Source of the DNA: a virus
Strand: one strand, 5' to 3'
Virus record (IMG/VR): IMGVR_UViG_3300028840_000445
Coordinates: 1-37,365 of that record
Length of the DNA stretch: 37,365 bases
The translations under genes were made by a program, and so were the position numbers. The notes below the pieces were generated by a model that saw nothing but the letters and a program-made list of their open reading frames with translations, made no database searches and was not told the DNA's origin. Shown in pieces: positions 2,232 to 37,193 of this stretch (its first letter is position 1; each line of letters opens with the position of its first letter).

Positions 2232-2252
2232 CCAAAAATAAGGAGAACGATT

Positions 2253-2579
2253 ATGGCAGGAACAACGACGCTTATCGCGGCAGGAACCGATGGTGCTACC
2301 GCTGTGATCCGGCTGCAGCCTGGAGTCAAGGCTTTGCTGACCGGATTTGGTTTTGCCGGTAACGGCGACATTCTCAGCGTGCTCGTGTCTTACGATGATG
2401 GCACGACATTCGTTCAATGTTACGACGATCTGGGCGTGGCCGTAGAGATCGGTGGATCCGGAGCAACGCAGCCGCGCAATCCGGTCATGATTGAGGGGCC
2501 AGGTGTCTACCAGGTCAAGCGAACCGCGACAACGACAGACAGTATCGGCGTTGCCATGACTCAGCAAGTCAACACATAA
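2253..2579 (+). CDS. Small beta-rich virion protein
   Basis: This 108-residue protein is rich in Gly, Thr, Val and Ala with alternating hydrophobic residues, typical of a small beta-sandwich. It has a strong ribosome binding site (AAGGAG just before the ATG) and lies 21 bases after the terminase stop. There is no signal peptide, catalytic motif or membrane helix. A role as a head decoration, head fibre or other minor virion protein is inferred from composition and from its place between terminase and portal. I do not recognise the family. Confidence 0.75.
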   Translation: MAGTTTLIAAGTDGATAVIRLQPGVKALLTGFGFAGNGDILSVLVSYDDGTTFVQCYDDLGVAVEIGGSGATQPRNPVMIEGPGVYQVKRTATTTDSIGVAMTQQVNT

Positions 2580-2589
2580 GGGGGCTGCC

Positions 2590-3015
2590 ATGTCGAGTTT
2601 GAAAGAAAACCTGAAAAAAGCCAACGTCGCTGCCGACATGGAGCTTTCTCCCGAGAGCAACATGAAGGCTCTCATCTCCCGCGTCTTCGCAACCCGAAAC
2701 GCTCTGCACTTCTTTCACTGGAAAACGAAATCCTTCGCCGCTCACATGGCTGTCGGGGATCTGTACGATGCCATCGTCGACAAGGTGGATGATATCGTCG
2801 AGATCTTTCAGGGGAAGTACGGTCTTCTCGAAGGCGTGAGTTGTCCGGCAGCGACAGCGATGGACGATCCGATCGCTCATGTGAGGTCCGAAGCCGAATG
2901 GTTTTGCGACAACAAGCAACGGATCTCCGGTGGGAACGCTGCCGTCAATAACCTGCTTGATGATCTCGAAGGGTGCTACCTGAAAACGATCTACAAGCTT
3001 GAAAACCTCCACTAG
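2590..3015 (+). CDS. Dps/ferritin-like four-helix protein
   Basis: This 141-residue helical protein carries the iron-site pattern of Dps, the DNA-protecting mini-ferritin of starved bacteria. The motif HFFHW has its HW histidine at residue 43, then H52, D67 and E71. The spacing H52 to D67 to E71 (15 and 4 residues) equals that of E. coli Dps H63, D78 and E82. The loop between the first two histidines is three residues shorter than in Dps. Dps proteins oxidise ferrous iron with peroxide and store it in a 12-subunit cage. Here the gene sits between terminase and portal, so the product may be made late, be packaged, or protect DNA in the infected cell. The fold is inferred from the motif and helical periodicity. 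Phage proteins of unknown function with a similar core are known, but I cannot confirm membership. Confidence 0.72.
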   Translation: MSSLKENLKKANVAADMELSPESNMKALISRVFATRNALHFFHWKTKSFAAHMAVGDLYDAIVDKVDDIVEIFQGKYGLLEGVSCPAATAMDDPIAHVRSEAEWFCDNKQRISGGNAAVNNLLDDLEGCYLKTIYKLENLH

Positions 3016-3023
3016 AGGGGCTT

Positions 3024-12565: not shown

Positions 12566-14128
12566 ATGGCAGAACTGACCACTCAATATGATGTCACGGT
12601 GGGGATGATCTCCTACGACGGCTACCTTTATATCTTCTCCAACGATGGGGCAGGATTGGGCGGCATGGACATCTATAACGAGTCGACATTGGAGCTTCAT
12701 GCCTTTGTCACGCTGCCGCTTCTTGTCACTTGCGGGACTGCCGGAGAAAACGGCATTTTCATCGGAACAGATGCAGGGATTTATACCATGTCGTTTCCTC
12801 CCGAAGGGGAAGGCTCTGCAACTCTCACGATTGATGACGGGACAACTCCTGCGATCAGCGATGTCAACGTCAGCGGGATTGCGACGGACGGGACGAATCT
12901 CATGGTCACGCATGATGCGGGGGTGGATTATATCACCGGATCAACCGTCTATTCCTATACGGACGCATCTGGAGCAACGAAGCCCTTTATCGACACCGTG
13001 AATGGGATGATTCTTTTTGCGCCAGGGACTCCGACGGACGGAGGCATCGCGATCAAGCCGACTCCGACGGCCAATTGGGACATCTACGATTGCAACGAGA
13101 TCAACGCTTCCGGATTCATCTGCCGCTTTCCTGGGACAAACGGAGCGGCTCCTGACAAATGGTTCTTTCCGACGGTCTACTTCTCAACCGGTGGAACCGA
13201 TGCCTTCGAGATCCAGAACAACAGCCTTTACATCAAAGGGGTAGACGATGGCACGACAACAACCCAGGGATTTAACGCTATCGGCGGCCCGAATGGTGCG
13301 CTGCCGCTTTCCGGCAACCTGACCATTCATGTGAAATACAGCGGATGGACTGAGATCGAAACCTCCGGTGCTGTTACCACACGGATATTCGCCTCGCTGC
13401 TCAAAACAGGTTGGGGGAAGATTGCCGAGTTCTGTATTGCATCAGGAAACAGTAACCGCAAACTCGATATGGTGCTTTGGCCTTCAACCGGAGCTTCAAC
13501 GACGGCTGTCAATCCTCACAACGTTGATGCCGGTTGGCTGAGAATCACCAGATCAACAAGCGTTGAAGAGGCTGATACGGTGACGCTCGATTACAACAAC
13601 GGAACAACCGACGCGATCCCTTCCGCTTCATGGTTGACTGCCGTTACTGATACAGAAGCGAATCCGTCTTACTACCAGGCCGACTGCATACTTGCCCTGG
13701 GAACGTATTTCAACGGTGGCGGTTCTCTGACCGAGATCGATGCGTACTTCGAACAGGTTCATGTGTCCTGCGACAACGCAAGCGCGACTCATCTCCGGCT
13801 GCTGCATAATACCTGCAACGACATGGCTTTTAACGCGAACTGCTTCTTCTTCGCAACCGATAGCGGAATCAGCATTGTCAATCACGTTGACGGGATCACA
13901 GACATGGTGACGCTCACGGCCACGGAGCTTCCGGAAGCCACGGTCGAAGCGATATCCGTCGATGCCGATACGGACGAGACAAGTGGCCGTGTTTATTTTG
14001 CAACAACCAACTATGTCGGGTACTACGACATTGGGACAGGAGAAAAGGTTTGGGGCTCCTCTGCCGGAGTCACAAGCATTGAAAAGTACATCCAGGGTGA
14101 TGATACCTTCATAACGCACGGCGGGTAA
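12566..14128 (+). CDS. Beta-propeller-like virion protein with inserted lectin-like domain
   Basis: This 520-residue protein has short strand repeats of the type GIFIGTDAGIYTMSF (residues 63-77), GIATDGTNLMVTHDAG (104-119) and, after a long interruption, FFFATDSGISIVNH (427-440) and VYFATTNYVGYYDIGTG (477-493). These look like propeller blades. The interruption at about 195-403 has the strand pattern of a laminin-G or concanavalin-like domain (FEIQNNSLYIKG, LTIHVKYSG, WLRITRS, DAYFEQVHVSC), a fold that often binds glycans. The N- and C-terminal blades may close one ring around the inserted domain. GGAG 8 bases upstream of the ATG supports the start. It may complete the nozzle with the 9597 gene or be a tail-side adhesin. 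Confidence 0.65.
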   Translation: MAELTTQYDVTVGMISYDGYLYIFSNDGAGLGGMDIYNESTLELHAFVTLPLLVTCGTAGENGIFIGTDAGIYTMSFPPEGEGSATLTIDDGTTPAISDVNVSGIATDGTNLMVTHDAGVDYITGSTVYSYTDASGATKPFIDTVNGMILFAPGTPTDGGIAIKPTPTANWDIYDCNEINASGFICRFPGTNGAAPDKWFFPTVYFSTGGTDAFEIQNNSLYIKGVDDGTTTTQGFNAIGGPNGALPLSGNLTIHVKYSGWTEIETSGAVTTRIFASLLKTGWGKIAEFCIASGNSNRKLDMVLWPSTGASTTAVNPHNVDAGWLRITRSTSVEEADTVTLDYNNGTTDAIPSASWLTAVTDTEANPSYYQADCILALGTYFNGGGSLTEIDAYFEQVHVSCDNASATHLRLLHNTCNDMAFNANCFFFATDSGISIVNHVDGITDMVTLTATELPEATVEAISVDADTDETSGRVYFATTNYVGYYDIGTGEKVWGSSAGVTSIEKYIQGDDTFITHGG

Positions 14129-14132
14129 GCTC

Positions 14133-14963
14133 ATGGCAGTTATTGTATGGCAGACAACGGGAAGCGGAATTCAGACGGTTGCACCGGCGGTTGACGGGCA
14201 GCTCGATCTGACTTTTGCGCTGACAAGCAGCCTGAATGTTTCCTCGATCACGATGGAAGCAGGGCTTGCCACCGTTGGCGGTGGAGTTTTGTCAAAGCGT
14301 GCTGTCGAGATCTCGCTTGAAGGCGACCTGGCTACGATCAGCACGATCACCGGTGGGGCTGAAGTTCTACTCCTGACCGGCGAAGGAACGATGTACTCCT
14401 CGAAGTCTTATGTGGGGAATGCTGAAGTTATCAAGATTTCGATGGACGGTTCCGGCTATGTCGGGCAGGGAACACTGAGCCTCGATAAAGAACTTGTCCT
14501 CTTCTCGATGGAAGGCGAGATTGTCCAGGCCGGTGATCAAGCTCTGGATCCTGGCGATGACCTGACTTACCCAGGGATCCTCCTGAGTGGCGACGAGTAC
14601 ATCGTTGTTAATTTGAGAACCAAGAGCCATTCCACATACAGGGATGGAACAAGAGCAGCCGTCGCTGCTTCGCCGGAGATGACCTTCGATTCTTACACCG
14701 AAAAGTCTGTCTCTGACTTCTATCTCCACGCACGAGCAGAGAAGAACACCAACCTTGTTGTTCTGTCCGGAGAGTCGAAAGAGCGGATCTACCCGCTGAC
14801 CTACGGAGAGAACACCCAGGCGAATCTGAAAAATAGACGGAAGCCGCTTGCCAAGGGTGTCCGTGCTACGAATTGGAAATTCACGATTGTCGTTCCCGAA
14901 GACTCTCACATGGAGATCCGAGGGATCGATCTCAGGGTCCACGACCTGAAGAGGCATAGCTGA
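14133..14963 (+). CDS. Beta-rich tail/virion protein
   Basis: This 276-residue protein has a first half of repeated strands with a recurrent I-S-hydrophobic-E/D-G pattern (SITMEAGLAT, EISLEGDLAT, KISMDGSGYV, LFSMEGEIV) about every 22-35 residues, suggesting a beta-solenoid or repeat sheet. The second half contains NLRTKSHSTYRDGTRAAVA and a basic C-terminus. No enzymatic motif is seen. Its stop overlaps the next start (TGATG). It is probably a structural protein of the tail hub. Confidence 0.65.
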   Translation: MAVIVWQTTGSGIQTVAPAVDGQLDLTFALTSSLNVSSITMEAGLATVGGGVLSKRAVEISLEGDLATISTITGGAEVLLLTGEGTMYSSKSYVGNAEVIKISMDGSGYVGQGTLSLDKELVLFSMEGEIVQAGDQALDPGDDLTYPGILLSGDEYIVVNLRTKSHSTYRDGTRAAVAASPEMTFDSYTEKSVSDFYLHARAEKNTNLVVLSGESKERIYPLTYGENTQANLKNRRKPLAKGVRATNWKFTIVVPEDSHMEIRGIDLRVHDLKRHS

Positions 14964-15958
14964 TGGCAGATACAGTCGATCTCCAAGCATTAGCGAATCG
15001 CACAGCTTCCCTGCTGCTCGACGCTCGAACTGATTTCGAGGATCGCATAGAGAGGATCCAAGAGATCGTGACCGAGATTGATTGGGAAGAGCTGACAGAT
15101 CTGATCCTGATGCCTGACATTACGAACATCACTTTCGACAACTACGAGAACGCCAAGGATCTCCTCGACGGCCTGGTATTCAATCCGATTAGGGAGAAGG
15201 AACTGTTTGACGGCGACATCGAGAAGTACAAGGTGCATATGTTCATCTCCCCGTCGCTCGATGATGCTGAGAACAAGATCGTGGAGATTCTCTCCGGGGC
15301 CGGAGATGACGAATTCAAGAAGCTCTCCGGAGCGATGCTTTCGACGGCCATAAGGGACAGCCTCGACAACAAGATCGATCAGGTCGATGATCTCGTTCAC
15401 ACGCGGCTGCGCGGGTTGGTTGGGGGATACCAGACGGGCAACACGAACCAGAACCAATCGTGGATGGACACGCAGAGAAATTACAAGCGGCAGGATCGTG
15501 ATCGCACCATCTTTAAGACCTTGTTCGACCTGGCGCAGGAGAACATCGCCTGGGCTTACAAGAACGGGATCAAGATCGAAAGGCTGCATGAGAACTTTAC
15601 GGCACGCTATAACCGGCTGTTTCTGGATCTGACGGCAGCGAACATCGCGGCTTACAGGGCAGAGGTCGACGCTAATATTGCCAACTTTGAGGCAGAGCTG
15701 AGAGCTATTGTCGAAGAGATCAAGAACGATGAGCTTCGATTCAAGCGGGACTCGGCAGAGTGGGATCTCAGAGTACGGCAGTACAACAGCCGGTTGCGTG
15801 CCTACGTCGCTGACTATCGTGCTCGGCTTGCAACGAACCTGAAGCTTCTGGGTACGAGAATCAGCGGCGGGAAGAACGTCGCAGACGGATACAAAGCGAT
15901 TTACAGTGCCTACTCCGGCCAATACAGCGGTGTGGCTCTGTCGAACTCAGGGGAATAA
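14963..15958 (+). CDS. Helical internal virion/ejection-type protein, paralogue A
   Basis: This 331-residue, mostly alpha-helical protein has long heptad-like stretches (residues about 190-300). The end is Gly/Ser-rich (YSAYSGQYSGVAL). It is clearly related to the next gene. Both contain DGD followed by KYKVHMF or KYRVHVF, a DLAQENI/QKNI helix, a NGIKIERLH/NGISIEDLH segment, and a NVA-GY/NVAEGF plus YSAYSG/FASYGS terminus. Long helical proteins just upstream of a giant protein are typical of internal core or ejection proteins, which leave the virion with the DNA. The function is inferred. An antisense frame over this gene is a shadow. Confidence 0.62.
   Translation: MADTVDLQALANRTASLLLDARTDFEDRIERIQEIVTEIDWEELTDLILMPDITNITFDNYENAKDLLDGLVFNPIREKELFDGDIEKYKVHMFISPSLDDAENKIVEILSGAGDDEFKKLSGAMLSTAIRDSLDNKIDQVDDLVHTRLRGLVGGYQTGNTNQNQSWMDTQRNYKRQDRDRTIFKTLFDLAQENIAWAYKNGIKIERLHENFTARYNRLFLDLTAANIAAYRAEVDANIANFEAELRAIVEEIKNDELRFKRDSAEWDLRVRQYNSRLRAYVADYRARLATNLKLLGTRISGGKNVADGYKAIYSAYSGQYSGVALSNSGE
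15949..15953 (+). promoter_or_regulatory. Ribosome binding site fixing the start at 15960
   Basis: GGGGA lies 6 bases before the ATG at 15960, while a longer in-frame start at 15906 would overlap the upstream gene by over 50 bases and has no better site. Confidence 0.6.
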
Positions 15959-15959
15959 G

Positions 15960-17000
15960 ATGTCCACTGTCAACATGAAAGCCTGGTACGAGGCAAACGC
16001 TGACAAGCTGACCGAACTGAAAGAACAGTATCTTCAGTCTGTCACGGAAGACGAGGATCTGCTCGGCGGGACGGTCAACGAGAACGGGATTTCGACGATC
16101 ACGATTGGTCATGAATTGCCGTTCAAGCCCTGGGCGAATATCTTTCTCGATCCGGTCGATGAGCTGTCGAGTGCCTTCCGGAAGGCTTCTTTCGAGCTGC
16201 CTGAAAAACCTGGCATTCTCGATGGCGACTACAAGCTCGACAAGTATCGGGTGCATGTCTTTAGCGATATCAGACTCGACAGCTTTGAAGATCGCCTGAA
16301 CGGGATCTATTCCAACTTCACCCCAGGGACGGATTATTCGATTTCCACCGTCACAGGCACGTTGGCTGAACAGGTTGTCGAAGCAACGATGGAAAAAGGG
16401 TATGACAGAGACATTGAGGATCTTACGACGGCGATGGATGCTGAAGCGAATGATTGGGCGGCAGAGGGCTATACTCGTGCGCCTGGAGCATTGGCATACG
16501 AACTGTCAGAACTTGCCGATAGATTTGACCGCGATCACTTCAACCGCACGGAAGCGGTCTTCGGCAGCATGGCTCAGATTTGCCAGAAGAACATCCAGGA
16601 CGCTTTTGAAAACGGCATAAGCATCGAAGATCTGCACATGGACTTTGCCATCGCCTACTCGGAACTCTCGAAGGTGTTTATCGGCAGCCAGGTCGATGCT
16701 TACGTTGCTGAGATAGACAAGCGGGTGAAGGAACACAAAGCTCAGTTGGCCCTGCTCGGAGAATACTATCGAGCCATCGGCCTTGACACTGAAGCGGATA
16801 TAAAGAAACATGAACTTGAGTTGAGTCTGCGCACAGAAGGATTGAACGCCTTTATCGATGCAACAAACAGCTTTATTGATTCCAAGGCGAACCTGATTAT
16901 GGAGCAGATCAAACTCGCTCAAAATGTCGCTGAAGGGTTTGGCGGCATCTTCGCAAGTTACGGCAGCCTGTTTACAGGTGTCAGCTACGAAGAGGCATAG
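15960..17000 (+). CDS. Helical internal virion/ejection-type protein, paralogue B
   Basis: With the start at 15960 the product is 346 residues. It parallels the preceding gene along most of its length: a short N-terminal helix, a DGDYKLDKYRVHVF segment, a helical central part, and a long coiled helical region ending SLFTGVSY. The two genes are almost contiguous, so they look like an old tandem duplication whose products might form a hetero-oligomer. No signal peptide or membrane helix is visible. As with its partner, an internal or ejected virion role is inferred from helicity and from the neighbouring giant gene. Confidence 0.62.
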   Translation: MSTVNMKAWYEANADKLTELKEQYLQSVTEDEDLLGGTVNENGISTITIGHELPFKPWANIFLDPVDELSSAFRKASFELPEKPGILDGDYKLDKYRVHVFSDIRLDSFEDRLNGIYSNFTPGTDYSISTVTGTLAEQVVEATMEKGYDRDIEDLTTAMDAEANDWAAEGYTRAPGALAYELSELADRFDRDHFNRTEAVFGSMAQICQKNIQDAFENGISIEDLHMDFAIAYSELSKVFIGSQVDAYVAEIDKRVKEHKAQLALLGEYYRAIGLDTEADIKKHELELSLRTEGLNAFIDATNSFIDSKANLIMEQIKLAQNVAEGFGGIFASYGSLFTGVSYEEA

Positions 17001-17009
17001 GAGAGGATA

Positions 17010-18485
17010 ATGGCAAAGATCTACGTCAACGGTCAATGGATGGACGAACCGAAACCTACGACATCCGGCAAAAGCGGCCCGAAGAAGATTAACAAACCTG
17101 CGGGTCCGAAGGTCAAGGCCAGGGGAACGAAGCCGGTCAGCGCGAAACCTAGCGGCAACGTGACCTACGATGGGAAGAGATCTGCAAAACTTTCTCAGCG
17201 TGGCCCTGGGACTCCCCCGAAGAACGCTCCTCGCGGATTCTCTCGTGGTGGTTACGGCGGGGCTCCGAAGTATGCGCCTGGTGTCGGTGCTCTTGAAGCC
17301 CTGGGTGGTGGCCTTGGCGTTATGGCTGCAGGGGATATCGCTTATGCGATGACTCCTGAAGGGTATGGTCCGAAAGCAGGATACGGCAACGAGCAGTCGC
17401 CCAGGGACTTTAACACCTACCAGGGGGCTCTTCCGATGCTTGGCACGGCAGGAGCCGCTACTGAGAAGTTTGCCGGTGACGTAGGACAGGTTGTTGGCGA
17501 GTTGTCGACGTTCCTGCCTGAAGGAATGGGCGGCGTGAAAACTCAAGCCCCGCTGTATATCCAGAACCCAGACGGATCCTACTCTCCTAATCCGGCTGCA
17601 GGAACAGCGAGTACGGCTGAACTCTCCCCCGAACAATGGCAGGAAATGAAAGACGAGCAGTATATGGGAATGTTCGGGCAGGACCAGGAAGGGTACGGAT
17701 ACCTCGCCTCCGGATCCGAGCCGATGCCGCTTGGCCCTGGTCCTGCCCCTAGTCCAGCCGCTCCAGATGACAATCAAGTTCCTGACCCGCGTGGAGATGG
17801 ATCCTTCGGCATGACTCCGGACGATTCTCCGGTTGATGTCAAGAACGGAACGGTCATTCCTCGCTACGGTATGCCAGAGGCTCCGACGATGAGATCTTAC
17901 GGTGAAAGGCTGTACGATGTCATGGGAGAGACAATGCCCGACAGCATGGAAGCCTTTATGGTTGCCAACTTCATGCAGAACAAGTTGCTTGGCGACGATA
18001 AGCGGTCGATGGATCAGTACAAGTCCGAGTTGAATGCGATGCCTCAGTACATGCAGCAGGATTACATGAGACAAGCTCTCCCGTCCCTGATCGAGCAACG
18101 GCTCTCAGGTTCAGAGCTTTCCCGCACCCAGGCGAAACTCGCCCCGGGCGAAGCGGAGTCTCAACAGATCTCTCGTGCTTTGCAGGGCGGTCTTGCCAAT
18201 GCACAGACACAACAGATCATGCAGAACATGAATATGTACGATCAGTTCTTGAACGGGACACCCGAGCAAAAGGCGGCTGCCAAAACCGCCCTGGGCCTCG
18301 ACAAGAACAAAGGACAAGACTACAACCTCGAAGCCCTGAAGTTGGCTCAGAAAGAGATCGAGAAGAAGATGGAAGTCAACTTCGAGGATCTTGAGCCTGA
18401 AGAGCGTGAGCAGCTGCTTGCTCAATACTTCTGGAGAAACCGCGCTTACATGGGCGGCACAGCCCTTCCTCCGGCAGGAGAATAA
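17010..18485 (+). CDS. Gly/Pro-rich virion protein, possible ejection component
   Basis: This 491-residue protein has a basic, disordered N-terminus (residues 1-85, Lys/Pro/Gly-rich) and then a Gly/Ala-rich hydrophobic stretch near 90-115 (GVGALEALGGGLGVMAAGDI). A Pro/Gly/Asp linker spans about 220-290. The C-terminal region is helical and Gln/Met-rich with a coiled end (residues about 295-490). A strong ribosome binding site (AGGAGAGGATA) precedes it. The mix of disorder, a weakly hydrophobic Gly-rich segment and helices resembles internal virion proteins that pass through the portal and associate with the membrane. It lies directly before the giant gene, with which it may act. No family is recognised. 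Confidence 0.6.
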   Translation: MAKIYVNGQWMDEPKPTTSGKSGPKKINKPAGPKVKARGTKPVSAKPSGNVTYDGKRSAKLSQRGPGTPPKNAPRGFSRGGYGGAPKYAPGVGALEALGGGLGVMAAGDIAYAMTPEGYGPKAGYGNEQSPRDFNTYQGALPMLGTAGAATEKFAGDVGQVVGELSTFLPEGMGGVKTQAPLYIQNPDGSYSPNPAAGTASTAELSPEQWQEMKDEQYMGMFGQDQEGYGYLASGSEPMPLGPGPAPSPAAPDDNQVPDPRGDGSFGMTPDDSPVDVKNGTVIPRYGMPEAPTMRSYGERLYDVMGETMPDSMEAFMVANFMQNKLLGDDKRSMDQYKSELNAMPQYMQQDYMRQALPSLIEQRLSGSELSRTQAKLAPGEAESQQISRALQGGLANAQTQQIMQNMNMYDQFLNGTPEQKAAAKTALGLDKNKGQDYNLEALKLAQKEIEKKMEVNFEDLEPEEREQLLAQYFWRNRAYMGGTALPPAGE

Positions 18486-18497
18486 ATGGAGAAGTAG

Positions 18498-21400
18498 ATG
18501 GCGTATAAATACCCCGCGTTACCGCAACCGCCAGATGCAAGCGTCTGGGAGAGATTAGGGGATTACGGAGTTGATGTCGGTCAGACCGTAATCGGAATGG
18601 GCGAAGCCCTTGTCGGTCTTGCCGACATACCTTCCGGTGGACATGCCGGTAAAGGTCTTCAGGCCATCGGATGGGATCCAAAGAAAACCCGCGAGATCCT
18701 GTCCTCTCTCTACTCAGACGAAAGACAATTCGAGGAAGCCGAGCAGTCTCGTCGCTTTGAAGAAGAAGGTATTCTGAGCGGCCTGAAATATGCTACGGCT
18801 AATCCTGCTTCTGCGATTGGCACGATCACGCAATCTCTCCCCCTGATGTATGGTGGTCGAGGGATCGCGACAGGTGCCATGAAGATGTTCCCGAAGCTTG
18901 CCCCTGCTATTGCCGGTGGTATTGGCGAAGGAATGATCGCCGGAGGTATGTCTCTCGAACAGATCCGTCAGCAGACCGAAGACGGAACCCTTTCCCCCGA
19001 ACAATATGCTTATGGCATGGGAGCCGGTGCTTTGACCGGTGCTCTTGGCTATCTTGGCGGCAAGGTGGCAGGAAAGCTTGGTATTGCCGATGTCGACGTA
19101 CCGATTCCTCCTGGCACGCCGTTGCGTGATCAGATGCGTCAACAGCTTGCCGAAGGTGCGAATAAATCTCTCCTCCGTCGTATTGGTGAAGGCGCGATCT
19201 CCGAAGGTCTGTTTGAAGAACTCCCGCAGTCCATTCAGGAACAGGTCATGGTCAACCTGGCGACCGGCAAAGAGTGGAACGATGGCATAAATGAAGCTGC
19301 CGGTCTTGGCCTCCTGACAGGCGCGGCGATGGGCGGCGGTATGCAAGGCGTTCAGTCTGCCCAGGCGAAAACCTTCAATGCTATCCTCAACCGAGCTGAT
19401 ATCAGAGAAAAAGGGAAGGCCGCTGCTCTCGAAGAAGCAGAGAACCTGGATAAGAAGCAGAAGAAGAAAGCGTCTGATTTCAAAAAACGGGTTGCCAAAG
19501 GGCATGAAGCCGAGTCCCTGATGGACGATACCTTGTCGATGGACGAGGTAAAGGCCGCGCAGGATCTTGACGATATCGCTTCAGAGGCAGAGCAGAACGT
19601 CCAGAAGATCGAGAAGGAAGCCGAGCAGCTCAAAGAAGTCACTGAGGTTGCCGAGACAGGGTTTACCGCCAAAGAAGTCACCCAGGCTCGAAAGCTGTGG
19701 GCTTCCTATCAGCGCACCCTGACCGAGCAGCAGAGCAGGGAAGAAATACTATCCGACCAGAAGAAGCTCCTCGCCAAAGCTGAAGAGGTTGGCATGGATC
19801 CGGTCGAGCTTGAGATCCTGCTCAACGACAACTACCAGAAGAACAAAGACTACCTGGCCGAGATGGAGCAGGACGTTGCTGCCATCCGCGAAACAGGTTT
19901 GCTCGATGAAGTCCTGCATCCGAAGATGAAGGAAGGCATCATCTGGAAGAACATCGAGGAGAAGCTTCACACGAGCCCGGGCTCTTTTGCCGACAAACTC
20001 CTTCAGCGTGCGTCACAGGAATTGCGGAACCGGATGTACGATTTAGGGACCGCAAAGGAACTGCGACGGGCCGCTAAAGCCTCGAAGGACGATCTCGAAA
20101 AGGCGCAGCTGCTTGGCTTGGCCGACGTTTACTACGAGATGTACTATGCCGAGCACGGCGAAGGGAAGAAGGTCGATGTCAATCAACCTGTTCCCACCGG
20201 AGAGCCTCTTGTTGGTGAAGGTGCCGGATATGACGGTCAGATGGACAACACAATCAAAACCGTCGAAGGCAAAGAGACTCAACGGGAAGGACTTCAGAAG
20301 CGGCAGATCCTCGACACCAATGTAAAGCCGATTGAATCGGACGGAGAGCGCATAACTGCACCTGCAGCTCCCCCCTCGCGGTCTGAGTTTGATCTGAACA
20401 TGGACGAGAATCTCAATTGGGTCGACATCAACGGTGTCCAGATTCCACAAGAGAAAATCGTCAGTCACGAGATCAAGACCTACGAAAACGGCGTTGCCAC
20501 CGTGATCCTTGGCCTTGCAAACGAGAAGGGCGGTATTACCAAGTCATACCCGATGCAAGTGACCGAGGAAACTCTGGATCGATATTTCCGTGATCTCGAA
20601 GTACGGAAGGGGAAGCGACTGACTCCGCAGCGGAAGAAGAAATCGATCAAGAAGGGAATGAAGTACAAGAAGAAGCAGACGATGCTTGATGAGACTATCG
20701 GCACTGTCGACGAAAACGAAGATGTAAAGCTTGAACGCTACGAAGGATACGCTCTCGATATCCTGGCCGAAGCCTACGGATCTGATGAGATCGACACCCG
20801 TCGCAGGACTGTTCAAGTCGAGGAGCAGGATCCGCAGCTTGCCGAAGCCCAGGCAGAGGCAGAAATGTTCTTTAAGGACGAAGGCTCGAAACCTCAGAGA
20901 GCAAAGAAGTATAGCGGATTCTTCAGCGATATTCCGGCAGAAATCCGCGACTTCCTCATGCAACGGAAGCGGTTCAAGGATATCCGGACGCATAACCCTG
21001 GGAGCACGACGTTCCTTCCCGATCCGACGATGGATGGCCTTAACCAGGGCATGATCAATCGTGCTGTGGCTCAGATGAACATCAACCCGATGATGAAGGC
21101 CGGTTATTCTGACATCGTTGCCGATATGCTTCTGAAAGCAGGGCGCACTCACAACCTGGGCGATGTGATCAAGTTTGTCCTTCAGGAGGAAAATCTTCAG
21201 TCTCTCTCTCAGCTTCAGGAGCCTCCCGAGTCGCTTTACGACTTCCTGCATTTTGCGCAGAACGGGTACGAGCCATTTGTTCCGGAAGAGAAGGTCGACA
21301 ATGCTTTTGAAGGGAACCTTCGGGAGTCCGTGCTTGGCAAGGCGTTGCTTCGGATGTTCGCCAAGGCCGTCTTTACTGATGAGGCCTATCTGACCTTCAA

Positions 21401-24400
21401 CGAGCGTGCGATCAAGCTGTTCATAAACGAGACAGAGAACGTCGAGAAGTTCGTGCTCGATCACTTTGCGGGGAGAGAAGCACCCTTCAGAGCGTTGTCG
21501 AAAGAAGATATCGATGCTCTGGCTTACGACTTCCGCAGAGAGTTTGGAATGCCGGTATCTCCGGCTGTCCTTCAGGAGATGATTAACACCCTGAACGACT
21601 ATACGTTCCAAGAGGAAGCCTTTTACACGGAGCAAGCCTACGAGCGGTATAAGCGAAACCGGAAACGGCTGCGCGGTCCCCTGGATTCTTTCGAGTCCGA
21701 GGATCTCCAGGTCAAGAGAGTTCCTGCTCCGAACAAGAAGGCACGGAGAGCCTCGAAGGAATCTCTGGTCAAAGACGCTTATAACTTCTTTATCGAGAAC
21801 ACAATCAAGCGGAATAAGGCTGCCGATCAACAGACATACGTTGCCTTCTTCAAAGCAATCTTTGATCTCGCCAACAGAGGATACAGTGCAAAAGCAAACT
21901 TCTTCAACGCCGAGCATATCGCGGCGGCGATGTCTGCTAACCCGATGGCTTCCGAAGAATTCAAGCGGCCTACCACGCCGAAGATCAATCGCCTGAGAGA
22001 AGCCTGGAACGAGTCTGGGAGGAAAGCCCGTACCAAGGAATGGTATGCCTTGCGAGAAGCAGAGGTCGCGTTTCAGACCGATGTTGTTCGTAAGATGTTC
22101 CGAGAGTCCAGGTTCCAAGACGGGTTCTTCGAGAAGATGCTGCACAACAAGGATTACGAGCTTGAGCTGACTGCCGAGAACATGGAAGCTCTTTACTCCG
22201 AAGGGGCGATGCACGTTCAGGATCTTGAGAAAGAAATGAAGCTGACCGGAGAAGAGAGATCCTACCGGAACTTTGTCGAGACAATCAATAAGGCAGGGTG
22301 GCGTGCTCACACGATTGATTATGTGAAAAGCGTCACATACACAGATGCCAACGGCGAAGAGAAGACAGTCCAGAATCCAACCCAGAGTAATTTTGATGAC
22401 ATCATCAAAGAGGATCCGGCTGCCATCATTCGTCGCGGCACGAAGAAGTACCTGTCGAAATCAGAGCTTGATGCCCTCGACTTGGCCGACGTTCATTCGG
22501 AATCCGTTGCCTCGTCTGAAACAGACATCTACGAGGTTAAGATCTTCAACGAGAAGAAGGGAACGTGGGGCGATCCGGTTCCTATGACCGATGCTGACTT
22601 CGAGAAACTGAGCCGTCACAAGAAGGTCGAGAAGATCAAGAAGATTGCCCGTCCGGAGAGATATATCGTTTACCGGTGGGATCAGTCGACGATTTACATT
22701 CCCTTGTATGAGAAGGCTCTCAATCGTGGTGTTGTCACGATGGATCAGGTAGCGAACCAGGGAACGAGAAATTCGTTCATCCGCAGCCTGAATGCTGCCA
22801 TCGCGATCATCGATGCGAACATCCAGGCACGCTATGACAGTGGCGATGCGATGGATATCGACTATATCCCGTACCTTCTGAAGCGGCGCGGGAAGCTGAC
22901 ACAGCAGAAAAACGAGATCCAGGAGATCTCAAACAGCTTCAACATCTTTACGAAGGCCGCGCTCTTTTCGAAATCCGCACAAGAGAACGAGGTACAGGAT
23001 CCAGAGTTCTTCGAGAACATGGTCAACGATTATCCCATGACCCGCCTCCAGGTTGTCGACGGGAAGAAGACAAAGGTTCCCTGGGCGGCTGCCGACTACT
23101 ATGCCCTGTACGAGAATGTTGGCATGGATATGAGCCGGTTCGTGCATCAGATTAAGTATCTGCATGACCAGGCCGCTATCAGGAATATGCGGGACACCTA
23201 CGCCTTTGATGAGAACTACAAGCCTGTGGGTCAGAAGCTCAAGCCTGAACAGGTCGACGAGATCCTCAAGGCGCGGCTGCCGAAACATCTCCAGACCGAT
23301 GAAGCCTTTAATCATGCCATCGAGGGCAACGAACATCTCCTGTCTCTCTACGCACCGGAAGACCGTCGTGCTTTGCGTGCCATTGGAATGCTGCGCAGCG
23401 AATTGCTGAAACTGGACAAGCCAAGCATCGCAAGCGTGCAATTCATCTCCAAAGCATCGAAGACCGGAAAGTACAAGCAGAAGATCCCGACGAGAGAATT
23501 GACACCTGAAGAGACTGTCAAACTCAAACAATCGCTTGAAGAAGAGCTGAGAGAGGCCGAAAAGGTAGCACAGGAGGCCAAATCCTTGACGAGAGCCACG
23601 ATCTCGGCTCCTGTGACCGGAACTGCCCAGATCGAGGATATGGTCCGTCTGAAGGAGAATTTGACGGAATCAGAGCAGGAAATCGTCAACGGCAACCCCA
23701 ATGTTCAGATCGTCAAGATGCTTTCGCCCGGGGCGCAGCGTCTTTATGAAATGGTGTCAAAGGCTTTCGGGGCCGAACTGATCATCGTCAACGGTCCCTA
23801 CAAGTCCCGATACAGATCTCGTGGCAGGAACAAAGCACCGCAGATCATCCTGAACGTTTCTGCCCCCAACCTCCATAAGGTATACGGACATGAACTATTC
23901 CACCATATTGTTGCGAAGGCGGCTCCAGAACAATACAACGCCTTCAAATTCGGATTGCGTCAGATTATCGGAGAAGCGGCGCATTATGAAGGCATCGAAT
24001 GGTACAAAGGGGCTGTCGAAGATAACTACTCTGCCAATGGTATCCGGCTTAAAAGCGATGAGATTGTACGAATCGCTCAAGAAGAATTCTATGCCGAAAT
24101 GATGGGCGAGATGGTCGGTGAGCGGATCTTCTACGAGAAGCTTGCCGAAACCGCTGCCGGTCGCACCCTGGCCGGTAAGCTCCTCATCAGCCTGACCAAG
24201 CGTGTCCTGTCCATGAACAAGATGCTGCTTGAGAACGACGCTCCGACCTCCTTCGAGAAGAATGTTCTTCTGACTTCTGCCCAGAACGAAAAGCTGAACG
24301 CCCTGTTCGCAGACTTCCTCGGAGAGAACCTCAACCCGTTCAAGCCATTCCCGATCATGGAAAGGCTCATGACGAGCTACGGGAACGTGACCACTCCAAA

Positions 24401-27400
24401 CCAGAGAAGCCCTGGGTGGATGGAGAACCTGATTGATCAGGTCATGTCGGACCTTCAGCAGGATACCGCCTCGAAGCGCGGCCTTGAGATCTTCCAGAAG
24501 CACCTGGCTGAACTGAAGGATCAATTCCCGAACAGCACGGAAGAACTGCAAAAGCTGTATGAGCAGTACAAGGCTGCCGCAGAAGAACGCGACACAGGCT
24601 CGAAGGATGTCAAGTATCATCGCGTGACGGATCAGGGAGATCGCATCGTCGACGATATGGACAGCGTGCGTGAGAACATCATCAACGAGCTGCCGAATAT
24701 GTCGACCGCCCAGGTCAAGCAGACTCTCAAAAGCAAAGTCCGTAAAGCAGAAGGACTCAAGCGCACTATTGACAGCTGGAGGCCAGGGCAGAAGATTGGC
24801 GAGAAGGGTGTCGAATGGTTCAAGTCGCTCCATGCAAACATTCAGGAGGAGATCCATTGGATCCAGAAGGAACTGATCTCCCGTCGTAAAGCCGAAGTCA
24901 AAGGCATGACCGACGATCAGATCCTTGCGGCGATGGTCGAGATCGATAAGCAACTGTCGGCAGACGATACGAAGAACGTCCGGCAGCTGCACGCGGATTA
25001 TAAGCTGCTCAAGGACGAGTTTGCTTCGAGGGAGCAGGATGCTCCTGCCGCTGATGAAGTCAACACCGAAGAGAAGTATCAGACATCCTTTGGCGCACGC
25101 ACCCAGGAGAACCTGAAGAACCTGCTTGAGAATAAGCAGAATTGGGCAAAGGGGATCTGGGAGGCCATCTTCCCGAAGAAGAAAAGAACCCGCAAGGAAC
25201 TCATGAGCCATTGGGAAGAGGGCATTAAATGGACTGTCGATTGGATCCGCGACAACAAGCCGAAAGTCATGTGGGCCGACTTTATGGCCGACAAGGTGGA
25301 GATCGCTTTGATGAACCGGATCGTCCACGGATCTGCCAAGCATGTCTCTCGCGTGAACTATGAGATCATGCGAGAACACAAGAAGGCTTTCAAGGAGATG
25401 TCCAGGTCACAGAAGATCAAGCTTCACGATCTCCTCGTGCGTGGAGTCGTGGTTTACTATGAGCTGCCGATCAAGAACAAGGCCGACGGATCGAACATCT
25501 TCTGGTCGCTCGACGAGATCCCGAGACAATTCAGGAACAACAAGAAACTGATCAATCAGTCCAGGGTCACTCTCAAAGTTGGACAGCCGAACCTGGAGAC
25601 AAACGAGGGCCGCGAAGAAGCGATCAAGTACGGGATCACTCCGGAGCAGATCGCCGCTTTCCGTGCTTTCAAAAAAGAAGCTGACCGGATCTGGAGAATC
25701 ATGAAGGGGATCTACCCTGATCTACCGAAGAACCCGTATCACTACGGTCAGTCCATCCGTTGGTTCCGCAAGGACGGGACGGAGCTTGATAGCAATTACG
25801 ATTGGGAGAAGAAGTCCGACACTTCCGCGCTCGAAGGCAATAAGCGTTTTCTCGAAGCAAAGAACACTGAAATAGGGACCGAAGAGATTGCCGAGACTCA
25901 CCGGCTCGAAGAGTTGTCGCTCGATCCTGACCGCCTGTTCATGGATTATGTCAGGGACGTTTATAACCTGATGTATTTCAAGCAGACGCTCAAGCGTGCG
26001 ATGGAGTCCGGAAATGCGAAGATCTTCACCAATCCGACCGAAGCGCAGAAGAAGGGATACTATCCTGTCAACGATAACGCTCTGAGAGTCTTGCAGAACA
26101 TGGCGATCAATACCGCCTACGTCCTGAAGGTCGATGGTGTCTATCTCAATACGGAAGGAGAGCAGATCACCGGTCAGAATGAGCAGCGGATGATCTACGG
26201 ATCAAAACGGGAAGCTCAGACCAAAGCAAGGGAGTTGCGCTTCAAAGGATCTCCGGAAGTCCAGATCGAAGAAATCCCCCTGGATCGTCGGGTCGATATT
26301 GTTGGCTACCACATTATCCGGATCAACGACCAGACCGGAGATATCAAGTATCTCCCCTCCGACGGATTCCGCTTTCAGCAGGACGAAATAGAGAAGGCCG
26401 AGGCTGCCCTGGAGAAGGCCAGGAGCGAGTCAATGACCGATAAGTATCGCTACGAGATCGAGCCGATAGAGCGAGTCTCTGAAGGTGAGCCGGTCGCACA
26501 GATCTACTTCACGAAGGGCATGGCGAACATGATGAATAATGTTCTTGCCCGAGATCTTATCAGGACAAAATCTTTCTTCGGGATCCAGGGCCGCAAGGTC
26601 ATGAACCTCAAGAACAAGTATACCTCTATCGAGTTTGCGATCTCGCTCTTCCATGCGATGACTATCGGGCAGGAATTGATAGCCTCGACCGCAGCCTGGA
26701 GGTATGGACGAATGCGGAGGGAGGGCAAGATCTCGCCGCTCGAAATGATCAAGTCGTTCAATCCTGTCTCAGCCATCCAAGATAGCCGGAAGATCTCCGC
26801 TCTGATGGAAGCCGTTCTTGCAGATCGAGAACTCGCACAGCACCCCGCCGTCAAGAAGAAGGCGATGGAGTTGCTCAACACGGACAATCCGGACGTTGTG
26901 GATGCCGTGATTCAATTCTACGATGCCGGTGGCCTTCTGGGGATGGACAAGTCCCTCAGATCTGAAGTCCATTATATGGGCGAGATGCGATACAAGGACG
27001 GCGATGCGAGAGTCTATGTCGACGATTCCGGAGAACTGCAGATCGAGCTGCCCAGGGGCGACGAGTATCCTCCCTGGCTACCTGGAGTTTTCGGAACTCA
27101 CGCTCCGATATCGAAGACTGCCATCGTCAATTCTTTCAAGTCTGTGTTGAATCAACAGCTCAAGGAGAACCCGAACCATAAGTTGTCGGCGTATATCAAG
27201 ACCGGCCAATTCGCGATGCTCGAAGGCACAACGGCTTGGCTCATGGAACAAGGCATTCCTCGCGTGAAGATGGCCGTCTTCGCAAGAGAGTACACTCACG
27301 AGCTTGAGCGGCAGAAGGATAAACTCGCCTCCGGACAAACGACCAAAGAGATGATTGCCCGGGACACGATGAAGTTCCTTGAGGACCGCTTCGGTGAAGT

Positions 27401-28541
27401 GAATTGGCAGAACACCTGGATGAACCCGACTTACAAGACGGCTCTCCAGTTTGCCTTCAGATCCTTTACCTGGTTCACCGGATCTTGGAACGCTCTCGCG
27501 AAGGCCGGAATCGATGTCGGCAAGTTGGGGTGGTTCAAGATCAAGGGCGAAGAATACGAGCTGACCAATCGAGGGTTGTGGGCTTTCAACGCAGTTGTCG
27601 CGCACATGATGGCAGTCTCTCTGATGTATACGGCCTTCATGATCGGCGCAGGTTTGAGCGGCGGCTTCGAGGACGATGATGAGGACGTTCCGCTGCTCAG
27701 TCAATTGCTCTTCCCCAGGACGGACGTTAATGATCCGGAGAAGCGAATTGCCATCCCGTCGTATGTCACTGAATGGTACAAGTTGGCACGGCATCTCGGG
27801 GTTATCGGGCATGATATCGAACCAAGCAAGCTGATCTCTGGCCGATTCAACTCTCTCCTCGGCAAAGGTGTCGATGTATTTTGGAACAACGCTGACTTCC
27901 GTGGCGTAAAGATTCGCAACGAAGCCGACTCTGTATTCAAGCAGACGTTTGACGCAATCCTGCATCTACTCCCGCTGCCGATCTCCGTTGCTTCGGCAAA
28001 GAAGAATTTCGAGACAAAAGGCTTTGATCCGGTGGACCTCGGCCTCGCGTCCCTGGGCATGGTCGACGCTCCCGCCTCTGCGAAGAGATCCTCGGCTGCG
28101 AACAAGGCATATGAGATCCGTCGTAAGGAATACAAGGGCAAAGACATCTCCTCGGATGAGATGGCGATCAAGGACAAGACCAAACGTGCGGCCTACAAGT
28201 ATGCCAGGGGTGACAAAGAGATGCTTCAGGAGATGGTTGCCACAGGAGAAATCTCCGCACGCAAGGCACGGAACGCCCTGGAGCGGCAACCTCGACTCAG
28301 CGGGAAGCCAAACCCGAAATATAAAAACTCCCTCGCCGCTGCCTTGAAAGGTTTGACAATTCAGGGCGCACTCGAAGTATGGGAGTACATGAGCGACCAT
28401 GAAAAAGAACAGCACAGAAAAACCATCCTGAAGAAATACCGGAACGTGGTTACGAGAAAAGATAGATCCAGAGAAGAAAAACTGGACATCAAAGAGAGAA
28501 TGATTGACCTTGGAATAATTAAGAGCAAAAAAGGAGAATGA
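18498..28541 (+). CDS. Giant 3,347-residue internal/polyvalent phage protein with HExxH metallopeptidase-like domain
   Basis: This one gene occupies over a quarter of the window. Residues about 20-290 hold Gly/Ala-rich, weakly hydrophobic segments (such as PAIAGGIGEGMIAGG and MGAGALTGALGYLGG) and an EELPQSIQEQ motif, the kind of N-terminus seen in very large phage proteins thought to enter the cell with DNA. Residues 315-450 are charged coiled coil. At 1798-1803 the motif GHELFHH contains H1798, E1799 and H1802, a zinc-peptidase HExxH. It follows a strand (IILNVS) and precedes EEFYAE (1862-1867), whose glutamate could be the third zinc ligand. Residues 3026-3055 are a hydrophobic helix-like segment. 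The last 200 residues are strongly basic. The layout resembles phage polyvalent proteins, which are injected to counter host defences. The length recalls the N4 virion RNA polymerase, but no polymerase motifs were found. GGAGAAG precedes the ATG. Confidence 0.8.
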   Translation: MAYKYPALPQPPDASVWERLGDYGVDVGQTVIGMGEALVGLADIPSGGHAGKGLQAIGWDPKKTREILSSLYSDERQFEEAEQSRRFEEEGILSGLKYATANPASAIGTITQSLPLMYGGRGIATGAMKMFPKLAPAIAGGIGEGMIAGGMSLEQIRQQTEDGTLSPEQYAYGMGAGALTGALGYLGGKVAGKLGIADVDVPIPPGTPLRDQMRQQLAEGANKSLLRRIGEGAISEGLFEELPQSIQEQVMVNLATGKEWNDGINEAAGLGLLTGAAMGGGMQGVQSAQAKTFNAILNRADIREKGKAAALEEAENLDKKQKKKASDFKKRVAKGHEAESLMDDTLSMDEVKAAQDLDDIASEAEQNVQKIEKEAEQLKEVTEVAETGFTAKEVTQARKLWASYQRTLTEQQSREEILSDQKKLLAKAEEVGMDPVELEILLNDNYQKNKDYLAEMEQDVAAIRETGLLDEVLHPKMKEGIIWKNIEEKLHTSPGSFADKLLQRASQELRNRMYDLGTAKELRRAAKASKDDLEKAQLLGLADVYYEMYYAEHGEGKKVDVNQPVPTGEPLVGEGAGYDGQMDNTIKTVEGKETQREGLQKRQILDTNVKPIESDGERITAPAAPPSRSEFDLNMDENLNWVDINGVQIPQEKIVSHEIKTYENGVATVILGLANEKGGITKSYPMQVTEETLDRYFRDLEVRKGKRLTPQRKKKSIKKGMKYKKKQTMLDETIGTVDENEDVKLERYEGYALDILAEAYGSDEIDTRRRTVQVEEQDPQLAEAQAEAEMFFKDEGSKPQRAKKYSGFFSDIPAEIRDFLMQRKRFKDIRTHNPGSTTFLPDPTMDGLNQGMINRAVAQMNINPMMKAGYSDIVADMLLKAGRTHNLGDVIKFVLQEENLQSLSQLQEPPESLYDFLHFAQNGYEPFVPEEKVDNAFEGNLRESVLGKALLRMFAKAVFTDEAYLTFNERAIKLFINETENVEKFVLDHFAGREAPFRALSKEDIDALAYDFRREFGMPVSPAVLQEMINTLNDYTFQEEAFYTEQAYERYKRNRKRLRGPLDSFESEDLQVKRVPAPNKKARRASKESLVKDAYNFFIENTIKRNKAADQQTYVAFFKAIFDLANRGYSAKANFFNAEHIAAAMSANPMASEEFKRPTTPKINRLREAWNESGRKARTKEWYALREAEVAFQTDVVRKMFRESRFQDGFFEKMLHNKDYELELTAENMEALYSEGAMHVQDLEKEMKLTGEERSYRNFVETINKAGWRAHTIDYVKSVTYTDANGEEKTVQNPTQSNFDDIIKEDPAAIIRRGTKKYLSKSELDALDLADVHSESVASSETDIYEVKIFNEKKGTWGDPVPMTDADFEKLSRHKKVEKIKKIARPERYIVYRWDQSTIYIPLYEKALNRGVVTMDQVANQGTRNSFIRSLNAAIAIIDANIQARYDSGDAMDIDYIPYLLKRRGKLTQQKNEIQEISNSFNIFTKAALFSKSAQENEVQDPEFFENMVNDYPMTRLQVVDGKKTKVPWAAADYYALYENVGMDMSRFVHQIKYLHDQAAIRNMRDTYAFDENYKPVGQKLKPEQVDEILKARLPKHLQTDEAFNHAIEGNEHLLSLYAPEDRRALRAIGMLRSELLKLDKPSIASVQFISKASKTGKYKQKIPTRELTPEETVKLKQSLEEELREAEKVAQEAKSLTRATISAPVTGTAQIEDMVRLKENLTESEQEIVNGNPNVQIVKMLSPGAQRLYEMVSKAFGAELIIVNGPYKSRYRSRGRNKAPQIILNVSAPNLHKVYGHELFHHIVAKAAPEQYNAFKFGLRQIIGEAAHYEGIEWYKGAVEDNYSANGIRLKSDEIVRIAQEEFYAEMMGEMVGERIFYEKLAETAAGRTLAGKLLISLTKRVLSMNKMLLENDAPTSFEKNVLLTSAQNEKLNALFADFLGENLNPFKPFPIMERLMTSYGNVTTPNQRSPGWMENLIDQVMSDLQQDTASKRGLEIFQKHLAELKDQFPNSTEELQKLYEQYKAAAEERDTGSKDVKYHRVTDQGDRIVDDMDSVRENIINELPNMSTAQVKQTLKSKVRKAEGLKRTIDSWRPGQKIGEKGVEWFKSLHANIQEEIHWIQKELISRRKAEVKGMTDDQILAAMVEIDKQLSADDTKNVRQLHADYKLLKDEFASREQDAPAADEVNTEEKYQTSFGARTQENLKNLLENKQNWAKGIWEAIFPKKKRTRKELMSHWEEGIKWTVDWIRDNKPKVMWADFMADKVEIALMNRIVHGSAKHVSRVNYEIMREHKKAFKEMSRSQKIKLHDLLVRGVVVYYELPIKNKADGSNIFWSLDEIPRQFRNNKKLINQSRVTLKVGQPNLETNEGREEAIKYGITPEQIAAFRAFKKEADRIWRIMKGIYPDLPKNPYHYGQSIRWFRKDGTELDSNYDWEKKSDTSALEGNKRFLEAKNTEIGTEEIAETHRLEELSLDPDRLFMDYVRDVYNLMYFKQTLKRAMESGNAKIFTNPTEAQKKGYYPVNDNALRVLQNMAINTAYVLKVDGVYLNTEGEQITGQNEQRMIYGSKREAQTKARELRFKGSPEVQIEEIPLDRRVDIVGYHIIRINDQTGDIKYLPSDGFRFQQDEIEKAEAALEKARSESMTDKYRYEIEPIERVSEGEPVAQIYFTKGMANMMNNVLARDLIRTKSFFGIQGRKVMNLKNKYTSIEFAISLFHAMTIGQELIASTAAWRYGRMRREGKISPLEMIKSFNPVSAIQDSRKISALMEAVLADRELAQHPAVKKKAMELLNTDNPDVVDAVIQFYDAGGLLGMDKSLRSEVHYMGEMRYKDGDARVYVDDSGELQIELPRGDEYPPWLPGVFGTHAPISKTAIVNSFKSVLNQQLKENPNHKLSAYIKTGQFAMLEGTTAWLMEQGIPRVKMAVFAREYTHELERQKDKLASGQTTKEMIARDTMKFLEDRFGEVNWQNTWMNPTYKTALQFAFRSFTWFTGSWNALAKAGIDVGKLGWFKIKGEEYELTNRGLWAFNAVVAHMMAVSLMYTAFMIGAGLSGGFEDDDEDVPLLSQLLFPRTDVNDPEKRIAIPSYVTEWYKLARHLGVIGHDIEPSKLISGRFNSLLGKGVDVFWNNADFRGVKIRNEADSVFKQTFDAILHLLPLPISVASAKKNFETKGFDPVDLGLASLGMVDAPASAKRSSAANKAYEIRRKEYKGKDISSDEMAIKDKTKRAAYKYARGDKEMLQEMVATGEISARKARNALERQPRLSGKPNPKYKNSLAAALKGLTIQGALEVWEYMSDHEKEQHRKTILKKYRNVVTRKDRSREEKLDIKERMIDLGIIKSKKGE

Positions 28542-36277: not shown

Positions 36278-36793
36278 ATGTGTCCTACAAGGGAAACTGA
36301 AATGATTCCATGCGAACAAGCTGATAAAATCGAAAAGCAGGGAAAGCTTCTCGAAGATATTGCTCGTGCTCAGAAAGATCATCGCACTGAGTTTCAGCAA
36401 TCAATCCAAAAGCTCACAGATATTTTGATCGAGAATACGAAGCATGATGCTGCACTCAGTCAGGCTCGGAAAGAACTGGACCTCCTCTTTGACAAGACGC
36501 GGACCAACGAACATCGCATCGAAGCTATCGAGATGAGGAATGCCCGTTGCGACGGAGCAGGAATCTTTGAGTCCTGGCCGAAGATCAGGGATTTCTATTT
36601 ATCCTTTGTCCCGCTGAAGGAGAAAACTGAAAAGCTCTGGAACAAATATCAGCAGGACGAAGGCGTAAAGAAGTGGATCCCGCTTGCGATCTCCGTTATA
36701 GCGATCTTGATCACGCTGCTCTCATACATGGACAGGGTTAACAATCACTCTCATTCAGGAGGGTCCAATGCCTCGGTTCAGCAAAGCAAGTAG
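36278..36793 (+). CDS. Coiled-coil protein with C-terminal membrane helix, lysis-associated
   Basis: With the start at 36278 the protein is 171 residues. A GGTGG purine run lies 7 bases before that ATG, and a longer start at 36239 lies inside the previous gene. Residues 15-90 form a charged coiled coil. Residues 133-151 (WIPLAISVIAILITLLSYM) form one membrane helix. A short His/Ser-rich tail follows. This layout resembles small phage haemolysin/XhlA-like membrane proteins that assist a holin. A spanin role is less likely because the helix is at the wrong end. It overlaps the endolysin gene by 26 bases. Confidence 0.7.
   Translation: MCPTRETEMIPCEQADKIEKQGKLLEDIARAQKDHRTEFQQSIQKLTDILIENTKHDAALSQARKELDLLFDKTRTNEHRIEAIEMRNARCDGAGIFESWPKIRDFYLSFVPLKEKTEKLWNKYQQDEGVKKWIPLAISVIAILITLLSYMDRVNNHSHSGGSNASVQQSK
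36757..36763 (+). promoter_or_regulatory. Strong ribosome binding site of the endolysin gene
   Basis: AGGAGGG lies inside the upstream coding region, 4 bases before the ATG at 36768, so the endolysin is translated efficiently within the cassette. Confidence 0.75.
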
Positions 36794-37193
36794 GGAGAAG
36801 CTCGAAACCTGCGACATCAGGCTCCAGACCCTCTTCGAGAAGGTTGTCGAAGGCTTCGACTGCACCATTACCTGCGGCTTGCGAACCCTTCAGGAACAAC
36901 AGACCCTCTACGCCCAGGGGCGCACGATGCCCGGGGAGATCGTCACGAACTGCGACGGGATCCTGAAGAAGTCGAATCATCAATCTGAAGACGATATCTC
37001 CAAAGCGGTCGACGCTGTTCCCTATCCCATCGATTGGAAGAACAGGGACCGCTTCATTCATTTCGCCGGATACGTCAAAGGCGTTGCGGATACTCTCGGA
37101 ATCAAGATTGCCTGGGGAGGTGATTGGGACAACGATCACTACATGCAGGACGAGAATTTCCCAGACTTCCCACACTTTGAACTGGAGGTATGA
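36768..37193 (+). CDS. Endolysin, M15 L-alanyl-D-glutamate/VanY-type peptidase
   Basis: This 141-residue enzyme cuts the peptide bridge of peptidoglycan to lyse the cell. It shows the M15 signature: a conserved CGLRT-x-x-EQQ-x-LYAQGRT segment (residues 36-53), zinc ligands H71 (in SNHQ) and D82 (in AVDAVPYPIDW), the GGDW motif at 117-120, and D133 and H136 in the closing PDFPHFEL. The spacing between H71 and D82 is 11 residues, longer than in the members I recall. There is no cell-wall-binding domain or signal peptide, which suits a Gram-negative host and a holin-dependent exit. It is flanked by membrane-protein genes, as in a normal lysis cassette. Confidence 0.92.
   Translation: MPRFSKASREKLETCDIRLQTLFEKVVEGFDCTITCGLRTLQEQQTLYAQGRTMPGEIVTNCDGILKKSNHQSEDDISKAVDAVPYPIDWKNRDRFIHFAGYVKGVADTLGIKIAWGGDWDNDHYMQDENFPDFPHFELEV

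Follow-up and report, generated by a model that had tools for sequence, protein, structure and literature searches.

Giant phage protein with a zincin-like metallopeptidase domain

The complete IMG/VR record analysed here is 37,365 bases long (this whole stretch of DNA is referred to as the window). Residues ~1735-1913 of the giant protein it encodes very probably form an MPTase (zincin-like metallopeptidase) domain, as judged from sequence comparison and structure prediction. The segment lies at bp 23700–24236 on the plus strand and is supported by its homologues, by invariant H/E/H/E positions and by an AlphaFold2 model. Our best overall explanation, with a probability of about 0.5, is that this is the MPTase domain of a polyvalent giant protein and that it would cut the giant itself. 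Zincin domains in polyvalent giants and the idea of self-processing have been known since 2017; what is new is the member in the window and the small un-modelled group to which it belongs.

The giant ORF and its genomic setting

The giant ORF runs from bp 18498 to 28541 on the plus strand, is free of stops and encodes 3,347 amino acids. Its PHROG assignments (30335 and 11358) are of unknown function. The N-terminal domain (residues ~22-280, bp 18561–19337, plus strand) is common to the giants of F116-like phages and can be used as a marker of the family. In tblastn searches it showed 34-47% identity to the giants of F116-type (Hollowayvirus) phages and prophages, with E-values between 2e-27 and 1e-13 for 38 phage records; in an alignment with the family giants the identity was 38-43%. 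Along the genome, the terminase, head-tail adaptor, major head protein and connector genes are followed by several unknown proteins and the giant, after which come the tail proteins and then the endolysin. Because of the N-terminal homology and the position in the structural module, we assign the giant, from the sequence, to the polyvalent, ejection-type proteins of F116-like phages. This assignment would rest on homology and architecture and not on a named LPD, which is a usual feature of such proteins and not a required one; comparison of the whole protein to Pfam gave no matches above the cut-off, including LPD and other named polyvalent domains. Polyvalent Pfam domains found in the relatives are LPD1, LPD3, LPD5, LPD23 and ART-PolyVal, and the relatives have been annotated as structural protein, PLxRFG protein, DarB-like antirestriction protein or internal virion polymerase. 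The giant of the window would be carried in the virion and delivered together with the DNA.

Downstream of the N-terminal domain lies a variable middle region (residues ~281-1734, bp 19338–23699, plus strand), for which a segment-wise phmmer search of ~110 related loci did not reveal any relatives. With ~1,450 residues lacking a detectable relative and both ends conserved, it resembles a swapped cassette region. The large C-terminal region (residues ~2166-3342, bp 24993–28523, plus strand) is conserved, with 40% identity to the giant of a related locus, L032, across 1,202 columns (blastp E = 0). No Pfam or PHROG domains were found in these ~1,180 residues. A single strong hydrophobic stretch is present in this region at residues 3032-3051. 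Overall, both ends of the giant are conserved, and two stretches, residues 281-1734 and 1942-2166, are not.

The endolysin gene (bp 36768–37193) matches PHROG 465 with an E-value of 5e-38 and shows, by eye, an M15-like His/Asp/His pattern. The contig therefore probably encodes a further zinc peptidase, in this case one of the usual lysis type. Locus L032 has the same endolysin gene after its giant (31% identity).

The HExxH motif and the likely third ligand

The giant contains only one HExxH. It is part of GHELFHH at residues 1797-1803, as the earlier note had claimed, with the H1798 codon (CAT) at bp 23889–23891. The HELFHH portion (residues 1798-1803, bp 23889–23906, plus strand) holds the putative zinc ligands H1798 and H1802 and the putative base E1799, and lies on a predicted helix (model residues 58-73). 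Directly before this active-site helix is IILNVS (residues 1783-1788, bp 23844–23861, plus strand); the strand proposed at this position was indeed predicted by AlphaFold2 (model residues 48-52). The putative glutamate helix contains EEFYAE (residues 1862-1867, bp 24081–24098, plus strand) and corresponds to predicted helix 119-138. The suggestion that it supplies the third ligand, about 60 residues beyond the motif, held and could be refined to its second residue, E1863, 61 residues past H1802. This glutamate is invariant, is located on the predicted helix and has a counterpart in ArdC, and is most likely the third ligand. E1867 had been considered for this position, being conserved in an alignment of three sequences; it was dropped because, with seven and with eight sequences, E1863 alone is invariant.

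By analogy with known sites, the ligands of Zn2+ (or of a comparable metal) would be H1798, H1802 and E1863, with E1799 acting as the general base and E1862 as a probable second-shell residue. The conservation of the base along with the ligands favours catalysis over a structural metal site, and on the sequence evidence the domain is probably a catalytically active metalloenzyme.

In a protein of this length an HExxH could arise by chance, and it did so in 225 of 3,000 shuffles of the giant protein (7.5%). The motif in the window, however, also fits PROSITE pattern PS00142, which appeared in only four of the 3,000 shuffles (0.13%). In addition, homologues that were found without use of the motif conserve the HExxH and nearly all giants of the family carry such a motif (both described below). 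Conservation in the homologues therefore shows that the motif is more than chance, and we consider a fortuitous occurrence to be negligibly probable.

Homologues of the domain

Seven homologues of the domain were found (L032, L063, L021, L033, L093, L104 and L116), with 13-34% identity to the window sequence. L032 and L063 were found by their N-terminal homology followed by a whole-domain search, in which L032 matched with an E-value of 1.9e-23 (phmmer); L021, L033, L093 and L104 were found with profiles and L116 by a further scan. In the alignment of the eight sequences, no columns are invariant except H1798, E1799, H1802 and E1863, the last of which is found in the context E-x-x-A or E-x-x-G in all eight.

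As some of the members were first spotted by their HExxH, the columns of the motif were masked in the profiles. The masked profile of the window, L032 and L063 recovered L093/L121 (E = 0.0013), L116/L124 (E = 0.0015), L104 and the Massilia loci L006/L008. With the masked eight-sequence profile the Massilia loci were recovered at 3e-12, although they are outside the profile. All masked-profile matches up to E = 0.05 have HExxH at the site. Conservation of the motif, a check that the earlier note had put forward, is thus complete in all homologues found, with and without masking.

The domain itself did not match any Pfam, NCBIfam or PHROG model, and nothing was found in protein-level searches of phage records or in single-protein searches of IMG/VR. 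In hhalign comparisons, which give percentages for single pairs and not database E-values, two other MPTase groups of F116-type giants matched the domain at 89-90%, and the remaining groups mostly weakly (0.8-37%). The domain matched the C1 part of the N4 virion RNA polymerase (vRNAP) at 84.7%, versus 0.17% with the reversed profile; against the whole N4 C-terminal part the value was 13%. Reversed-profile controls for the two groups and N4 C1 gave 0.2-0.4%, and column-shuffled controls never scored above 17, versus 44-46 for the three real comparisons. These results indicate that the domain is likely to be homologous to N4 C1.

Predicted structure and fold neighbours

An AlphaFold2 model of residues 1735-1913, based on the eight-sequence alignment, had a pLDDT of 83 and a pTM of 0.78, and the motif blocks had a pLDDT of 80-92. 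A longer first construct had a pLDDT of 71 and poor fold matches; the value of 83 was obtained after trimming to 179 aa and with the eight sequences. The order of elements in the model is helix 10-22, strands 26-31, 37-39 and 48-52, the HExxH helix 58-73, two helices and the glutamate helix 119-138. This predicted order equals that of the MPTase core as described previously (PMC5512222).

Foldseek did not give a match below E = 0.001 in the PDB, nor was there a significant sequence match to solved structures. The best PDB neighbour, at a weak E = 0.046 and TM 0.26, was YfcM; the weak neighbours also include the zinc proteases Spartan (6mdw), IgA protease (9ekk) and MATCAP (7z5g). With the longer model, the best two neighbours in BFVD were 'large polyvalent protein associated domain' proteins (probability 0.80 and 0.99). 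The structural check proposed earlier was thus borne out in part: the motif and E1863 are on the two expected predicted helices, but a significant match to a solved gluzincin was not obtained. The model agrees with the zincin reading, without proving it.

YfcM is a metal-dependent hydroxylase, not a protease, and binds its metal through His59, His63 and Glu98, which sit on two helices that follow each other (PMC4231759). As this is the best solved fold neighbour, and as HExxH is also known from radical-SAM enzymes (PMC12633501), the domain could be a metal-dependent enzyme of other chemistry, for instance a 2-His-1-carboxylate hydroxylase. We regard this as improbable: the match to YfcM is weak, three zinc proteases are also among the weak neighbours, and the order of strand before helix, the ExxA glutamate helix and the conserved HExxH base are the signature of gluzincins.

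Comparison with known systems

Zincin-like metallopeptidases were described by Iyer et al. in 2017 as the domain found most often in polyvalent proteins, with one to five MPTase domains in ~36% of these proteins and 12 published clades (PMC5512222). As in those proteins, the giant of the window is multidomain and lies in a phage structural module, and its putative MPTase domain has an HExxH helix and a Glu helix after a three-stranded sheet, the two helices being separated by a variable insert. Relatives of the giant contain LPD and ART-PolyVal domains, and an MPTase is near-universal in the family. In contrast to the described MPTases, the sequence group of the window is not matched by any Pfam model. 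Iyer et al. proposed that the proteins process themselves, either before they are packaged, inside the head or once they have entered the cell, and named host-directed cleavage as the alternative (PMC5512222). The three options of the earlier note (processing of the giant itself, maturation of internal proteins and attack on the host) closely match this proposal and are therefore not new. Of its reading as a zinc peptidase, a gluzincin-like domain in a giant of the virion/ejection module stood; protease activity, target and injection are what we infer.

The vRNAP of phage N4 (gp50, Schitoviridae) has in its C1 part a strand, HELVHAS with its motif at 2228-2232, and an ExxA helix (NEFMA). A very large C-terminal region comes after this part, and the window domain is similar. 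Homology between the C-terminal region of the window giant and N4 C2 was not detectable (hhalign 0.1%) and, unlike in N4 vRNAP, an RNA polymerase domain was not found in the window giant with Pfam. According to Iyer et al., N4 vRNAP is packaged unprocessed (PMC5512222). The study of gp50 reported no evidence of degradation and found that the C-terminal part autoinhibits the polymerase (PMC12633501).

The metal ligands of ArdC from R388 are H201, H205 and E229, E228 lies in the second shell, and the glutamate helix of gluzincins is described by the pattern (E,H)xx(A,F,T,S,G) (PMC7213743). The candidate site H1798/H1802/E1863 with E1862 in the window is like this site, whereas the spacing between the second His and the Glu is 61 residues in the window and 24 in ArdC. 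ArdC was not found from the window domain by sequence or fold search, and the ArdC-N domain was not detected in the window giant. ArdC with a mutated zinc ligand is still functional (PMC7213743).

The findings on N4 vRNAP and ArdC would weaken self-processing. They could instead mean that the zincin fold and metal site are kept mainly as a structural or regulatory C-terminal module, as for N4 C1/C2, or in another non-proteolytic role. In favour of this, N4 C1 has HExxH without reported degradation and its profile matches the window domain, and the protease site of ArdC is dispensable. Base E1799, however, is invariant in eight very divergent sequences, while a purely structural metal site needs no base, and the counterpart of N4 C2 was not detected in the window. 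On balance we consider such a role rather unlikely.

Spread across F116-type giants

The giants of F116 (F116p59/p60), Epa33 (33_00062) and phiC725A (phiC725A_54) have N-terminal domains 39-41% identical to that of the window and occupy the same position in the structural module. Their MPTase groups differ from that of the window giant, as do their middle and C-terminal parts. The lysis genes of F116 come directly after the giant, whereas tail genes intervene in the window. The F116 giant (L001, bp 13815–25176) consists of two ORFs, F116p59 and F116p60, with the HExxH sites in the second, while Epa33 and phiC725A have it as one ORF; the Epa33 giant has two HExxH sites.

Among the complete giants that share this N-terminal domain, 49 of 51 contain HExxH or HExxxH; in shuffled sequences the mean was 3.6 and the maximum eight. 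One of the two exceptions is F116p59, the first half of the split gene, of which the second half, F116p60, contains two HExxH. Different giants have different MPTase groups, with one to four HExxH or HExxxH each. In L047, L092, L045, L060 and others, up to four of these motifs, of different groups, are found in one giant, which suggests several MPTase domains per giant. Almost every F116-type giant thus keeps an MPTase-type motif while other parts vary.

Such persistence of the MPTase while the middle of the giant varies is what would be expected of a conflict protein, and the domain could be an effector protease that is injected and, after entry, cleaves a protein of the host (e.g. a defence or regulatory protein). 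Iyer et al. list this as an alternative, and MPTases are effectors in other conflict systems (PMC5512222). However, neither sequence nor context points to a target, and the near-universal presence with one to four motif copies per giant better fits a generic maintenance role. We therefore hold a host-directed effector to be unlikely.

Self-processing remains the leading idea for the main role of the domain, although a tentative one. The domain would act on the giant itself, once in the head or inside the cell, and would cut at flexible linkers between domains, so that separate modules are released. Candidate cut zones are the two unconserved stretches between the conserved ends (residues 281-1734 and 1942-2166). 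Metal binding, catalysis, self-cleavage and its timing are all steps that we infer.

Implications

The domain described here would add a divergent, so far un-modelled MPTase group to the polyvalent giants. Its active site is conserved in extremely divergent copies, yet in the experimentally studied relatives proteolysis is unseen (N4 vRNAP) or unneeded (ArdC), which is a puzzle. It is doubtful, though conceivable, that in N4-like and F116-like giants alike the very common HExxH domain serves not for processing but as a host-directed effector peptidase or a metal enzyme of other chemistry. If true, this would explain the invariant active site despite N4 vRNAP being reported undegraded, and an enzyme of other chemistry would condition the ejected giant or a host factor.
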